Shown here: in pieces, positions 7,529 to 48,180 of the stretch
How positions within the stretch are numbered: the first letter of the stretch is position 1
Layout of the letters: each line of letters starts with the position of its first letter
From: Oscillospiraceae bacterium
GTDB taxonomy: Bacteria; Bacillota; Clostridia; Oscillospirales; Oscillospiraceae
Direction: 5' to 3'
Assembly: GCA_902793285.1 (NCBI GenBank)
Contig: CADBCV010000012.1
Coordinates: 1 to 52,560, forward strand
DNA: 52,560 bases
Program-made: the position numbers and the translations under genes
The notes under the pieces: model-generated
The model's input: the letters and a program-made list of their open reading frames with translations, nothing else
Databases searched by the model: none
What the model was told of the DNA's origin: nothing

Positions 7529-7602
7529 GGTGACCCGTACGGGACTCGAACCCATGTTACCGCCGTGAAAGGGCGGTGTCTTAACCACTTGACCAACGGG
7601 CC
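7528..7602 (-). tRNA. tRNA-Glu (TTC)
   Basis: Seventy-five bases including an encoded CCA. Acceptor arms GGCCCGT and ACGGGTC pair with one G-U. The anticodon loop CTTTCAC gives UUC. The T loop is GGTTCGAGTCC. Confidence 0.93.
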
Positions 7603-7635
7603 TAATAAAGGCGCAGCGTGGTTGCTGCGCCTTAC

Positions 7636-7712
7636 TGGTAGCGGCACCTGGATTCGAACCGGGGACACTTCGGGTATGAACCGAATGCTCTGGCCAACTG
7701 AGCTATGCCGCC
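7636..7712 (-). tRNA. tRNA-Met (CAT), elongator type
   Basis: Seventy-seven bases including an encoded CCA. The acceptor GGCGGCA pairs with TGCCGCT, and the anticodon loop reads TTCATAC. The fully paired first base pair and the lack of three G-C pairs in the anticodon stem argue for the elongator rather than the initiator form. Co-oriented with tRNA-Glu 33 bases downstream; probably one transcript. Confidence 0.9.
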
Positions 7713-7848
7713 ATTTGAACAGCAAGAGAAATATACCAGATTCGCGCCCGCTTGTCAACACCCAAGACGCCTCTTTTCCCGATTTTTTCATTTTGCGAAA
7801 AATAATACTTGAAATTGGGAAATACCTGTGGTAATATATACGGGCTAT

Positions 7849-7925
7849 GGAGGGTTAGCTCAGCTGGTTAGAGCGTCCGCCTCACACGCGGAAGGTCGAC
7901 GGTTCGAGTCCGCCACTCTCCACCA
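7849..7925 (+). tRNA. tRNA-Val (CAC)
   Basis: Seventy-seven bases including an encoded CCA. The acceptor GGAGGGT pairs with ACTCTCC (one G-U). The anticodon loop CTCACAC gives CAC. The D loop has AGCTCAGCTGG and the T loop GGTTCGAGTCC. A terminator follows at once. Confidence 0.92.
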
Positions 7926-45070: not shown

Positions 45071-45790
45071 ATGACCCCCCACAACAACGCAAAGCCCGGC
45101 GCTTTTGCCAAAACCGTGCTCATGCCCGGCGACCCCCTGCGCTCCAAATTCATCGCGGAGAACTTTCTGACCGACCCCGTCCTTGTCAACAACGTGCGCG
45201 GCGTCCAGGGCTACACCGGCAAGTGGAAGGGCGTGCCCGTGAGCGTGATGGCCTCCGGCATGGGTATGCCCTCCATCGGCATTTACAGTTGGGAGCTCTA
45301 TGAGAGCTACGGCGTGGAGAACATCATCCGCGTGGGCTCCGCCGGCGCGCTGCAGGACAACGTGAACGTGATGGACATCGTCATCGGCCAGGGCGCCTGC
45401 ACAAACTCCCACTACGCGGACCACTTCAATTTCCCGGGCACCTTCGCCCCCATCGCGGACCCCACGCTGATGCAGAACGCGATGAAGGCCGCCATCGAGC
45501 TCGGCACGAAATGGCACGTCGGCAACATCTACTCCTCAGATAACTTCTACCACCCCAAGGACTATGAGGGGACCCTTGCCGTGCGCCGTATGGGTGTGCT
45601 CGCCGTGGAGATGGAGGCCGCGGCCCTCTACGCGAACGCCGCCTATCTCGGCAAGCGCGCGCTCTGTATCTGCACCATTTCCGACCACCTCTTCAAGCAG
45701 GAGGAGCTCAGCCCCGAGCAGCGCCAGACCGGCTTCAACGAGATGATCACCATCGCCCTCGACACCGCGGCAAAAATGGCGGAGGAGTAA
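45071..45790 (+). CDS. deoD: Purine nucleoside phosphorylase, DeoD type
   Basis: A 239-residue hexameric-type phosphorylase that cleaves purine nucleosides with phosphate. KTVLMPGDPLRSKFIAENFL (phosphate loop), GVQGYTGKWKG, MGMPSIGIYSWELYESYGV, GVLAVEMEAAALYANA (ribose-binding Glu) and CTISDHLF with the catalytic Asp are all present. AAGGAGG precedes the ATG. Divergent from the pyrimidine salvage operon, so purine and pyrimidine salvage are neighbours here. Confidence 0.95.
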   Translation: MTPHNNAKPGAFAKTVLMPGDPLRSKFIAENFLTDPVLVNNVRGVQGYTGKWKGVPVSVMASGMGMPSIGIYSWELYESYGVENIIRVGSAGALQDNVNVMDIVIGQGACTNSHYADHFNFPGTFAPIADPTLMQNAMKAAIELGTKWHVGNIYSSDNFYHPKDYEGTLAVRRMGVLAVEMEAAALYANAAYLGKRALCICTISDHLFKQEELSPEQRQTGFNEMITIALDTAAKMAEE

Positions 45791-45815
45791 AAATTTGTAT
45801 AAAGTCCCCGTCTCT

Positions 45816-45932
45816 CCGTAGGAGAGGGGCTTGCCCCTCCCGTGCGGGGAAAGCTGCGTTTTTCCTCAACGCCCGGGCGAGTGCGTAAACCGACATCGTG
45901 CTGCCGGGCGGGGCAAGCCCCGGCCCCTACGG
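45816..45932. repeat. GTAGG...CCTAC palindromic repeat
   Basis: The arms CCGTAGGAGAGGGGCTTGCC and CCGGCCCCTACGG, with GGGCGGGGCAAGCCCCG, bound a spacer without a reading frame. Same family as the outer parts of 28239-28376 and 52040-52203. Confidence 0.6.
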
Positions 45933-46008
45933 AATCGTCAGACATTTTCGCCTTGATACACACGTTTCCGATGCGGTAAGGTTCCGGGCGGAAGCCGAAC
46001 CCGTGCAC

Positions 46009-46159
46009 TGTAGGGGCCGACGCCCTCGGCGGCCCGCGCGGGTTAGACCGAAATCAAACAAAAAGCCCCCGGCGAAAGCGTATCATGGTACGAATTCGCC
46101 GGGGGCCAATGTATTTTTAGGTTTTCTATGCCGGGCCGCCGAGGGCGTCGGCCCCTACA
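46009..46159. repeat. Composite repeat with 28-bp perfect inverted ends and covarying hairpin, copy C
   Basis: The first 28 bases (46009-46036, from TGTAGGGGCCGACG) are the exact inverse complement of the last 28 (46132-46159). Inside, GCCCCCGGCGAA (46065-46076) and TTCGCCGGGGGC (46095-46106) enclose GTATCATGGTACGAA. On the minus strand a TTTTT run follows the stem, so it can terminate nagB. With 45816-45932 it fills the gap 45791-46192; no gene is seen there. Confidence 0.75.
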
Positions 46160-46192
46160 AGGTTTGCCGGACTTTTTTCACAGCCCCATTTC

Positions 46193-46984
46193 TTACAGCC
46201 TCTCGCCCTTTTCGATATCGAGGAAGTATTTGTAGGTATCGACGGTGAGCTCGCCGCAGGCGGCCTCGTCGCAGGCGATGATGGCGGCGTTGTGCATCTG
46301 GAGGGCGCTGCAGGTCCACTTCTGGCTCACGCCGCCCTCGACCGTGGCGGCCAGGGCGCGGGCCTTGTTGTGGCCGCTGATGAGGACCAGGACCTCCTTC
46401 GCGTCCGTCACGGTGCCGATACCGACGGAGAGGGCCTGCGTCGGGACCTTGGCGGGGTCGTTATCGAAGAAGCGGGAGTTTACGAGGATGGTGTCGGTGG
46501 TGAGATTGCGCAGCCCCGTCCGGGAGGCGAGGGAGGTATAGGGCTCGTTAAAGGCGAGGTGGCCGTCCACGCCGATGCCGCCCATGAAGAGGTCGATGCC
46601 GCCGTAGGAGGCGATCTTCTCCTCGTAGCGGGCGCACTCGGCCTCGGGGTCCTCGGCCATGCCGTTGAGGATGTTGATGTTCTCGGGCTTCATGTCCACA
46701 AGATGGTCGAAGAGATTGTCGTGCATGAAGTACCAGTAGCTCTGGTCATGCTCGTGGGGAAGGCCGACATACTCGTCCATATTGAAGGTGACGACGTTTT
46801 GGAAGCTGAGCTCCCCGGCCCTGTTCATGCGGACAAGCTCTTTATACACGCCGATGGGCGAGGAGCCGGTGGGAAGGCCCAGGACGAAGGGGCGCGCCTC
46901 CTTGTGGGCGCGGATCTTCGCGGCGATGTAGTCCGCCGCCCATTTGCACATTTTATCGTAATTATCCTGAATAACAACTCTCAT
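46193..46984 (-). CDS. nagB: Glucosamine-6-phosphate deaminase
   Basis: A 263-residue NagB that reversibly converts glucosamine-6-phosphate to fructose-6-phosphate and ammonia. FVLGLPTGSSPIGVYKELVR (phosphate loop), VVTFNMDEYVGLP, GIGVDGHLAFNEP with the catalytic His, and TVTDAKEVLVLISG are all canonical. AAGGAG lies eight bases before the ATG. What is odd is its leader: a glmS-type ribozyme lies between the promoter and the start codon, so the mRNA should be cut when the enzyme's own substrate accumulates. That suggests control of a biosynthetic direction, or of a GlcN6P set point. No nagA or glmS is in the window. Confidence 0.95.
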   Translation of the reverse strand: MRVVIQDNYDKMCKWAADYIAAKIRAHKEARPFVLGLPTGSSPIGVYKELVRMNRAGELSFQNVVTFNMDEYVGLPHEHDQSYWYFMHDNLFDHLVDMKPENINILNGMAEDPEAECARYEEKIASYGGIDLFMGGIGVDGHLAFNEPYTSLASRTGLRNLTTDTILVNSRFFDNDPAKVPTQALSVGIGTVTDAKEVLVLISGHNKARALAATVEGGVSQKWTCSALQMHNAAIIACDEAACGELTVDTYKYFLDIEKGERL

Positions 46985-46999
46985 GTCGATTCTCCTTCA

Positions 47000-47150
47000 T
47001 TGAATGTCATTCAGTGTAAAACAGGCCTCTGTTGCGGTCTTGATTCCGTTTTTCTTCCTGTCCTTTCGACCCACTGTGAGCCGTGGCGGCATCCGCCGAA
47101 TCCTTCGATCACCGCCAACCTCGTCAACCCGTTACGGTCCCGGCGCTAAC
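47000..47150 (-). ncRNA. glmS-type self-cleaving ribozyme in the nagB leader
   Basis: The minus strand carries the glmS ribozyme core: cleavage context TTA/GCGCC (cut predicted between 47147 and 47146), a short P2 hairpin (GACCGTAACGGG), then the invariant GTTGACGAGG, P3 arms GGCGG and CCGCC, and between them TGATCGAAGGATTCGGCGGA, matching the known UAUCGA...UCGGCGGAUG block. A P4-like AAAAACGG...CCGCAACAGAG follows. In known cases glucosamine-6-phosphate acts as cofactor for cleavage and the cut mRNA is degraded. The 3' edge is approximate. A 7-bp stem (CAGACTC with GAGTCTG) precedes the cut site. Confidence 0.9.
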
Positions 47151-47196
47151 AGACTCGCAGCCTACCTCCGTGGGGAGTCTGTTTTAATACGGACCC

Positions 47197-47224
47197 ATTA
47201 TAGCGATTTTCGCGCGCTTGTCAA
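47197..47224 (-). promoter_or_regulatory. Promoter of the ribozyme-nagB transcript
   Basis: TTGACA (47219-47224) and TATAAT (47197-47202) on the minus strand, spacer 16, both consensus. The -35 box overlaps the stop codon of the lysR gene. The start site would fall about 45 bases before the ribozyme cleavage point. Confidence 0.8.
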
Positions 47225-48180
47225 GAAAACTGCTGTCGGGCCTTGTAGTCCTCGAAGAAATCCCGCACGGCTTCAAAGAGCTCCTGCGTCACGCCGCTGA
47301 TGCCGGCCTCCCGGTTATAGTAGGCGCACACATCCTCGATATCCGGCAGGTACGGCAGGGGGAAGATGTAGATATGCTTGAGATAATCCGCCTGCAGCTC
47401 GGGCGAGAGCATGTCCCAGAAGACCTTCGCGTAGATGAAGACGCCGATGCCGGAGTTTGCGAGCTGAAAGGCGTTTTCGATATTGGTGAGCTCACAGACA
47501 AAGCGGGGGCTGATGTCATAGTACTTGAGATAGCTGCCGAGGGCGCGCCCGCCGGAGGACTGGCGCGGGATCTTGATGAAGGGGGCGGACTCAAAAAAGC
47601 TCAGATCGGCGCTGCGGGAAAAGCGCTCCACCAGCTCCGGCAGGCGATCCCCCGCGAGCGCCGCCATAAGATTTTTCGGCACGACAAGCAGATGCTCCTT
47701 TCGGCAGAGGGGGATGGCCTCAAACTTCTCCGGGACGCTGCCGAGCGAGCCGATCACGAGATCCACCCCCTCATAGGAGATGGACTTCTGCATCACGTCC
47801 GGCGACTCCTCGCTCAGCTTGACGAAGGTGTCCGGGTGGGCGCTCAGAAAGCGGGGCAGCACCCGGGGGAGGATGGCGCGGGCGATGGTGTGCTCGATGC
47901 CGAGATGGATGTAGTGCGCGCCGCTGAAGCTCTTGCTGGAGCTCTCCTCAAACTGCTGCTTGAGCTGGAGGATCTCCTTGGCGATGGGCAGGAGCCTGCC
48001 CCCGTCCGGCGTGAGACTCAGGGGTCTGCTGCGGATGAAGAGGGTGGTGTCCAGGTCCTCCTCCAGCTTTGCCACCTGCTTGGAGAGCGTCTGCTGGGAG
48101 ATGAACAGATTTTTGGCGGCGGAGGAAAAGCTCTTCTCCTCGGCCACCGCGATAAAGCTCTTTAAGAGTGTGAAGTCCAT
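47221..48180 (-). CDS. LysR-family transcriptional regulator
   Basis: A 319-residue LysR protein. The N-terminal helix-turn-helix (LLKSFIAVAEEKSFSSAAKN, then FISQQTLSKQVAKLEEDLDT) is followed by a linker helix and a ligand-binding domain (HYIHLGIEHTIARAILPRVL, GVDLVIGSLG). It is divergent from the TRAP transporter operon, so it most likely controls that operon and itself, with the transported carboxylate as a candidate co-inducer. The co-inducer is inference. Confidence 0.92.
   Translation of the reverse strand: MDFTLLKSFIAVAEEKSFSSAAKNLFISQQTLSKQVAKLEEDLDTTLFIRSRPLSLTPDGGRLLPIAKEILQLKQQFEESSSKSFSGAHYIHLGIEHTIARAILPRVLPRFLSAHPDTFVKLSEESPDVMQKSISYEGVDLVIGSLGSVPEKFEAIPLCRKEHLLVVPKNLMAALAGDRLPELVERFSRSADLSFFESAPFIKIPRQSSGGRALGSYLKYYDISPRFVCELTNIENAFQLANSGIGVFIYAKVFWDMLSPELQADYLKHIYIFPLPYLPDIEDVCAYYNREAGISGVTQELFEAVRDFFEDYKARQQFS

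Follow-up and report, generated by a model that had tools for sequence, protein, structure and literature searches.

A glmS-type ribozyme in front of nagB in an Oscillospiraceae genome and its relatives, and a probable GlcN6P-producing role for NagB

What is a glmS-type ribozyme, known for shutting off the synthesis of glucosamine-6-phosphate (GlcN6P), doing in front of nagB, whose product is usually thought to consume GlcN6P? In the 2011 survey of McCown, 461 of 463 glmS ribozymes reportedly lay in glmS mRNAs, with two exceptions. The ribozyme of Clostridioides difficile stands before glmS in the available text of PMC11477304, which, with the accessible parts of PMC10043782, describes for the family a cleavage by GlcN6P that leads to mRNA decay. 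No account of a ribozyme-nagB pair was found in published titles and abstract openings, and an earlier report is possible. The window, i.e. the whole stretch of 52,560 nucleotides analysed here, belongs to an Oscillospiraceae bacterium (GCA_902793285.1). An earlier note, made from the letters alone, had read in it a ribozyme core in the nagB leader, a consensus promoter ahead and the deaminase gene behind, and had called this the reverse of normal catabolic logic. It offered two explanations: a NagB running in the aminating direction as the GlcN6P source of the cell, or a lost glmS gene replaced by nagB behind the old switch.

On the minus strand, from 47224 to 46193, the window carries in this order a promoter, a leader, a glmS-class ribozyme, an AAGGAG motif and nagB (Table 1). 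The elements claimed in the earlier note were all recovered: the ribozyme core by the RF00234 covariance scan that it had proposed, the promoter at every consensus position, the deaminase gene by TIGR00502, and the cleavage-site sequence, where the predicted cut between A47147 and G47146 is followed by CGCC. A scan of 1.9 kb (45700-47600) returned 3 promoter-like sites against a shuffle mean of 0.6, and 4 terminator-like sites against 1.7. None of the latter lies on the minus strand between the promoter and nagB; a transcript end there is an outcome that the earlier note had set against its own reading. The window nagB is a single-gene unit, the next gene, deoD, being convergent.

Table 1. Features of the nagB locus in the window, and family genomes sharing the arrangement
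Feature	Position	Strand	Basis
Sigma-70-type promoter, TTGACA-N16-TATAAT	47197..47224	-	consensus match 12/12
5' leader, upstream of the cleavage site	47147..47185	-	sequence and centroid fold; hairpin AACAGACUC/GAGUCUGUU
glmS-type self-cleaving ribozyme, RF00234	47009..47158	-	62.2 bits vs gathering 37
Shine-Dalgarno-like AAGGAG and nagB start	46984..47001	-	sequence; ATG at 46984
nagB, E. coli-type (long) glucosamine-6-phosphate deaminase, 263 aa	46193..46984	-	TIGR00502 376.6 bits
Intrinsic-terminator-like site, 3' of nagB	46065..46079	-	sole minus-strand site in 45700-47600
Family genomes with ribozyme-nagB (9): G000 (the window's genome), G004, G131, G174, G060, G199, G181, G178, G090			

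About 40 nt of leader separate the promoter from the ribozyme, including the hairpin of Table 1, which has a GGAGG-like purine stretch in its loop; a resembling hairpin was seen by eye in the aligned leaders of 9 nagB-linked ribozymes. GGAG(G)-like purines 5' of the cleavage site (47161-47171 in the window) were likewise seen by eye in many nagB- and glmS-linked leaders, where they might serve in 5'-end protection or ribosome binding.

The RF00234 match has an E-value of 5.2e-12 in the window search and 5.7e-14 in the whole-genome search, with no second match at E 0.001 in this genome, whose assembly is 79.5% complete. Its core (AGCGCC, with the predicted cut after the A, GACGAGG, UCGA and UCGGCGGAUG) is kept in the window and in a 9-sequence alignment, with the variant AACGAGG in G090. 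The ribozyme has a short P1 and an L4 loop of AAUNA type in place of GNRA, a peripheral feature that is unneeded for RF00234 membership. The minimum-free-energy fold of the leader gave no support (z -0.65; 52 of 200 shuffles were equal or better) with a program that cannot form the pseudoknots of the glmS ribozyme. We consider the RNA almost certainly a genuine, GlcN6P-responsive ribozyme. Elsewhere, the window contains a lysine riboswitch (RF00168, 10939-11107, minus strand, 94.8 bits) and a cluster of 3 tRNA genes (7531-7922), two on the minus strand and one on the plus strand.

The protein behind the ribozyme is a NagB: its 263 aa do not match the GlmS profile TIGR01135 (glutaminase and SIS), while they pass the TIGR00502 cut-off of 236.9 bits over the full length, including the C-terminal stretch. 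The best PDB chains are 7lqm, 3hn6, 7lqn and 1cd5. As in the E. coli-type NagBs 1cd5, 7lqm and 3hn6, the motifs NMDEY and DGHxAFNEP are present, being kept in all 95 long NagBs compared (one row is a duplicate); we take them to hold the catalytic residues, D72, D141, H143 and E148 in E. coli. The same 95 rows differ from those three chains in having SRTG(V/L/I)R instead of SRTRIK, with Gly aligned to Arg158 throughout. They do not show the Arg158/Lys160 pair, presumably the allosteric-site residues of the GlcNAc6P-activated NagB. The available text of PMC9812318 names GlcNAc6P as a regulator of hexameric NagBs, and a Gly at this place would fit the loss of a catabolic signal. This is a weak argument, because catabolic NagBs without GlcNAc6P activation are known from the accessible parts of PMC5902328 and PMC9812318, the former describing no such activation for the NagB of Akkermansia.

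A comparison with related genomes, which the earlier note had recommended, extended the arrangement to at least 47 non-redundant genomes in which the ribozyme precedes nagB within a single unit (9 from the window's family and 39 named genomes, one being shared: L104 and G178 are the same genome, with identical nagB). For the family, 200 genomes were drawn from the larger group and searched with strict filters by which weak matches are lost. RF00234 matched in 27 of them, 26 above gathering; 17 matches lie before glmS and 9 directly before nagB, and the remaining one, in G036, heads a run of glmM, the acetyltransferase gene and nagB. The single match below gathering belongs to G131 (33.6 bits), with an intact core and a long insertion in the P3 region; G004 scores 42.4 bits. 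All 9 ribozyme-nagB genomes are among the 15 with a NagB above 350 bits, and the ribozyme was found at nagB in none of the 85 other genomes with a NagB above the cut-off (Fisher 2.6e-9, kinship ignored).

Among the matches listed for named genomes, the best 80 loci by likeness to the window NagB were taken, and 39 have a ribozyme upstream of nagB, a fraction that is not a prevalence. Nearly all these records are metagenome assemblies by their titles; one whose title does not say so is L097 ('Ruminococcaceae bacterium P7'), with the order ribozyme-nagB-acetyltransferase-glmM and a GlmS in the same genome. The model used (R1, built from the 9 leaders) was a finder only, and its RNAalifold structure differs from the canonical pseudoknotted fold; retested with RF00234, 38 of the 39 genomes scored above gathering and one at 36.4 bits. 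Six other long NagBs (L032, L033, L034, L038, L044 and L046) have no RF00234 match before them up to E 1. In a NagB tree with still unsettled bootstrap values, the rows with a ribozyme group together without making up a single clade, with 12 changes for 48 labelled rows against a shuffled mean of 35.5. R1 also matched 119 of 391 genomes in a survey of the class. The best 30 of these 119 comprise 25 before glmS, 4 (the window itself included) before nagB or acetyltransferase/glmM, and one without a recognised gene. In G374 (L201, 3287-4047), the ribozyme is followed by a nagB that runs for about 114 codons before a foreign stretch, transposase-like as judged by eye, interrupts it.

Compared with the glmS ribozymes of Bacillus subtilis and C. 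difficile, the nagB-linked ones are alike in core, cleavage site, P1/P2a, position in the 5' leader and score; they differ in the gene served, which there is glmS and here nagB, either by itself or in a unit with glmM and the gene of a GlmU-like acetyltransferase. For a finer comparison, 47 of 48 nagB-linked rows (duplicate included) and 16 of the 18 glmS/glmM-linked rows of the family were parsed; the only nagB-linked failure, L107, has a G in UCGA, and a slightly wider pattern fits 47/47 non-redundant rows. AGCGCC, (G/A)ACGAGG and UCGGCGG occur in all 47 parsed rows, the same words having anchored the parsing. P1 is paired at four fixed positions in 46-47 of 47, with changes on both sides, and P2a in 47/47, in a register picked per sequence for best pairing, which favours pairing. 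Positions in P1/P2a show 1-3 standard pair types each; P2.1 and P2.2 were taken from sequence alone.

The periphery is where the two groups part. The spacer from AGCGCC to (G/A)ACGAGG measures 14-20 nt (median 16) in nagB-linked ribozymes versus 19-36 nt (median 25.5) in glmS/glmM-linked ones. L4 is of AAUNA type in 46 of the 47, the window included, and the last one (G090) looks alike by eye with an altered flank, whereas 17 of 18 glmS/glmM-linked ribozymes of the family have GNRA, the L4-P1 motif described in the available text on the glmS ribozyme (PMC11602151). Both types meet in G234: read by eye, L4 is GNRA in its ribozyme before glmS and of AAUNA type in the one before nagB. Among the best 30 of the 119 class matches, the AAUNA type was seen by eye in G000, G615, G497, G597 and G374, and it reaches beyond nagB, standing before glmS in G615 and before an acetyltransferase-glmM pair in G597. 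Judging by these features, the nagB-linked ribozymes form a subtype that is set apart by its periphery, shared with the glmS of G615. The base before UCGA, presumably A50 near the ligand, is A in 16/16 parsed glmS/glmM-linked rows and G in 8/47 nagB-linked ones; a strict covariation of this base with the loop end was rejected (G-C in 8 rows, A-U in 27, A-C in 12).

The genes around nagB were searched by tblastn with three queries: GlmS, glmM and an acetyltransferase-like protein of 219 aa. GlmM passes TIGR01455. The 219-aa protein scores 142.7 bits with TIGR03992, below the full-length cut-off of 292.1, and has 5z09 and 2ggo as PDB relatives; it appears to be the acetyltransferase half of an archaeal-type GlmU and would presumably catalyse that reaction. 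In the best-80 set, 31 of the 39 ribozyme loci have glmM and/or the acetyltransferase gene on the same strand at a distance of at most 1.6 kb (27 have both); among the 41 loci that share the NagB type and lack the ribozyme, the count on these terms is 21 (11 with both). The 8 ribozyme loci with neither gene nearby are in some cases ended by contig ends. Several unit orders occur, such as ribozyme-nagB-acetyltransferase-glmM, ribozyme-acetyltransferase-nagB-glmM, ribozyme-acetyltransferase-glmM-nagB and ribozyme-glmM-nagB-glmS. By contrast with E. coli-type NagB, the neighbours are thus biosynthetic, and the context of the nagB unit (31/39 loci) is UDP-GlcNAc synthesis rather than GlcNAc breakdown. 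The gene nagA was found in one (L086) of the best 80 long-NagB loci and in 8 of 15 loci with a shorter NagB (L047-L061), with a flank of only about 1.5 kb. There are two kinds of nagB, one often by nagA and without ribozyme, the other often by glmM and often with ribozyme.

The window's genome has its glmM and acetyltransferase gene on another contig (C16), behind a distant NagB paralogue (L063, 4996-7906). This paralogue has 120 bits with TIGR00502, 28% identity to the window NagB and GVTEL in place of NMDEY, and from this motif may be no deaminase; a similar one precedes glmM in G174. In G036 (L062, 1484-4554), a ribozyme with GNRA L4 is followed by glmM, an acetyltransferase-like gene and the gene of a short, divergent NagB (208.8 bits, under the cut-off), while glmS is on another contig without a second ribozyme match. 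G148 (L053) has a short NagB directly 3' of glmM, no NagA match, a GlmS match of only 2.7e-5 and no ribozyme match, and is possibly a second recruitment.

The earlier note had also called for a search of the genome for glmS and a second nagB. No GlmS match was found in the window's genome, in an assembly 79.5% complete, and beside the window nagB there is the distant paralogue. Over the 47 ribozyme-nagB genomes, GlmS is above the cut-off in 34, fragmentary in 2 and absent or weak in 11. The family part of this count has no match in G000, G004 and G131, one of only 2.3e-4 in G090, and E-values of 8e-181 or lower in the other 5, among them G174, a relative in the same genus holding GlmS and ribozyme-nagB together. 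The named part has 30 genomes above the cut-off (one being the duplicate), 2 fragments of 383-403 bits, and 7 with none or a weak partial match (6e-32 or weaker), their assembly completeness being ungiven. NagA is above the cut-off in G000 (298 bits), G174, G181 and G090, without match in G004, G131, G199 and G178, and at only 1.4e-4 in G060. Two assemblies, G004 (94% complete) and G131 (100%), therefore have ribozyme-nagB and GlmM and no match to GlmS or NagA at E 0.001; they could import glucosamine as its 6-phosphate. In the family survey at large, the best GlmS match was 4e-57 or weaker in 43 of 200 genomes, and NagB was matched in 35 of these 43 versus 88 of the 157 others (Fisher 0.0025, hand-counted), an excess that assembly gaps and salvage users could explain.

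In the mechanism that we infer, from the ligand through cleavage and mRNA decay to the direction of NagB, abundant GlcN6P would trigger the predicted self-cleavage, the nagB mRNA would decay and less NagB would be made; with scarce GlcN6P the transcript would stay uncut and NagB would be produced. By analogy with the family, the ribozyme very probably controls nagB through mRNA decay. Turning NagB off at high GlcN6P makes sense only for an enzyme that produces GlcN6P, and so NagB would be a producer, converting fructose-6-P and ammonia into GlcN6P beside or in place of the glutamine-dependent GlmS. Its product would pass through GlmM and the GlmU-like acetyltransferase to UDP-GlcNAc for the cell wall, and the ribozyme would exert product feedback on GlcN6P. 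The neighbouring glmM and acetyltransferase genes, the double ribozyme of G234 and the genomes free of GlmS and NagA agree with this. G234 has one ribozyme ending about 30 nt before glmS and another before nagB, which puts NagB in the regulatory class of the GlcN6P maker GlmS. We regard a GlcN6P-sensing ribozyme as product feedback on a mainly GlcN6P-producing NagB as the probable and best explanation, and a chiefly synthetic NagB, deduced from gene order and regulation, as likely too. The aminating reading of the earlier note is in this way its best supported part, near-complete G004 and G131 included, and the supposed reversal of catabolic logic arises only if NagB is catabolic here, against which the gene neighbourhood argues. 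An ammonia-rich gut would presumably favour amination, and many of the named records have titles with ruminant gut sources.

Against a synthetic NagB stand several facts: GlmS is kept in 34/47 genomes, so that NagB is not the sole source of GlcN6P there; the window's genome has nagA, and its nagB lies apart from glmM; and G131, the key GlmS-free genome, is below the RF00234 gathering threshold. The strongest contrary fact comes from Akkermansia muciniphila, which is similar in that it lacks GlmS and has NagB as the sole named enzyme between fructose-6-P and GlcN6P. As described in the available text of PMC5902328, which makes no mention of a ribozyme, its NagB makes no GlcN6P at physiological conditions, where it only deaminates, and GlcNAc is required, although aminating activity is known there for NagBs of other organisms.

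These facts leave some room, though little, for a NagB that is still a catabolic deaminase and is limited for another reason, e.g. as a passenger under a brake on co-transcribed genes. Besides Akkermansia, the nagA of G000, G174, G181 and G090 makes GlcNAc breakdown possible in those genomes. On the other hand, a breakdown enzyme switched off at high substrate would be regulated in the wrong direction, nagA is nearly missing from the best 80 loci while glmM and acetyltransferase genes are frequent, and the ribozyme before a lone nagB in the window speaks against a mere passenger. Displacement, in which glmS disappeared in an ancestor and nagB took its place at the old switch as the only GlcN6P source, appears similarly improbable. 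The minority without GlmS (G000, G004, G131, G090 with its trace, and 7 of the 39 named genomes) and the AAUNA-type ribozyme before glmS in G615 agree with it. As a general rule, it conflicts with the 34/47 genomes keeping GlmS, the 2 more with long fragments, the presence of both in G174 and the two ribozyme subtypes of G234; moreover, the short P1 and AAUNA L4 against the local GNRA indicate that the nagB switch was not copied directly from the glmS switch of the same family. This second explanation of the earlier note may thus apply to a minority. A decayed or ligand-changed ribozyme, blind to GlcN6P and acting as a constitutive or otherwise triggered RNA processing site, is very improbable: the unusual L4 and P1 and the G before UCGA in 8/47 could be taken that way, but the core words are unbroken in the parsed rows (which they also anchored) and 38 of 39 named genomes exceed RF00234 gathering.

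Returning to product feedback on a synthetic NagB, the RNA and enzyme classes are known, and what appears to be new is their pairing and its implication. We lean slightly towards a broader proposal: in many gut, largely ruminant, Bacillota, a dedicated NagB would make cell-wall GlcN6P from ammonia under the same RNA switch, represented by a distinct peripheral subtype, and would be the sole route in some lineages, so that GlmS would not be universal among peptidoglycan makers independent of outside amino sugar. If this is true, the glmS ribozyme controls GlcN6P production generally, and more than one gene, and the loci support a synthetic NagB with genetic evidence from nature. The in vivo direction of NagB, an old question, is made testable by them. 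Drugs against GlmS or the glmS ribozyme may face a second source of GlcN6P, and the bacteria would have a glutamine-saving path to cell-wall sugar, one that fits guts rich in ammonia.
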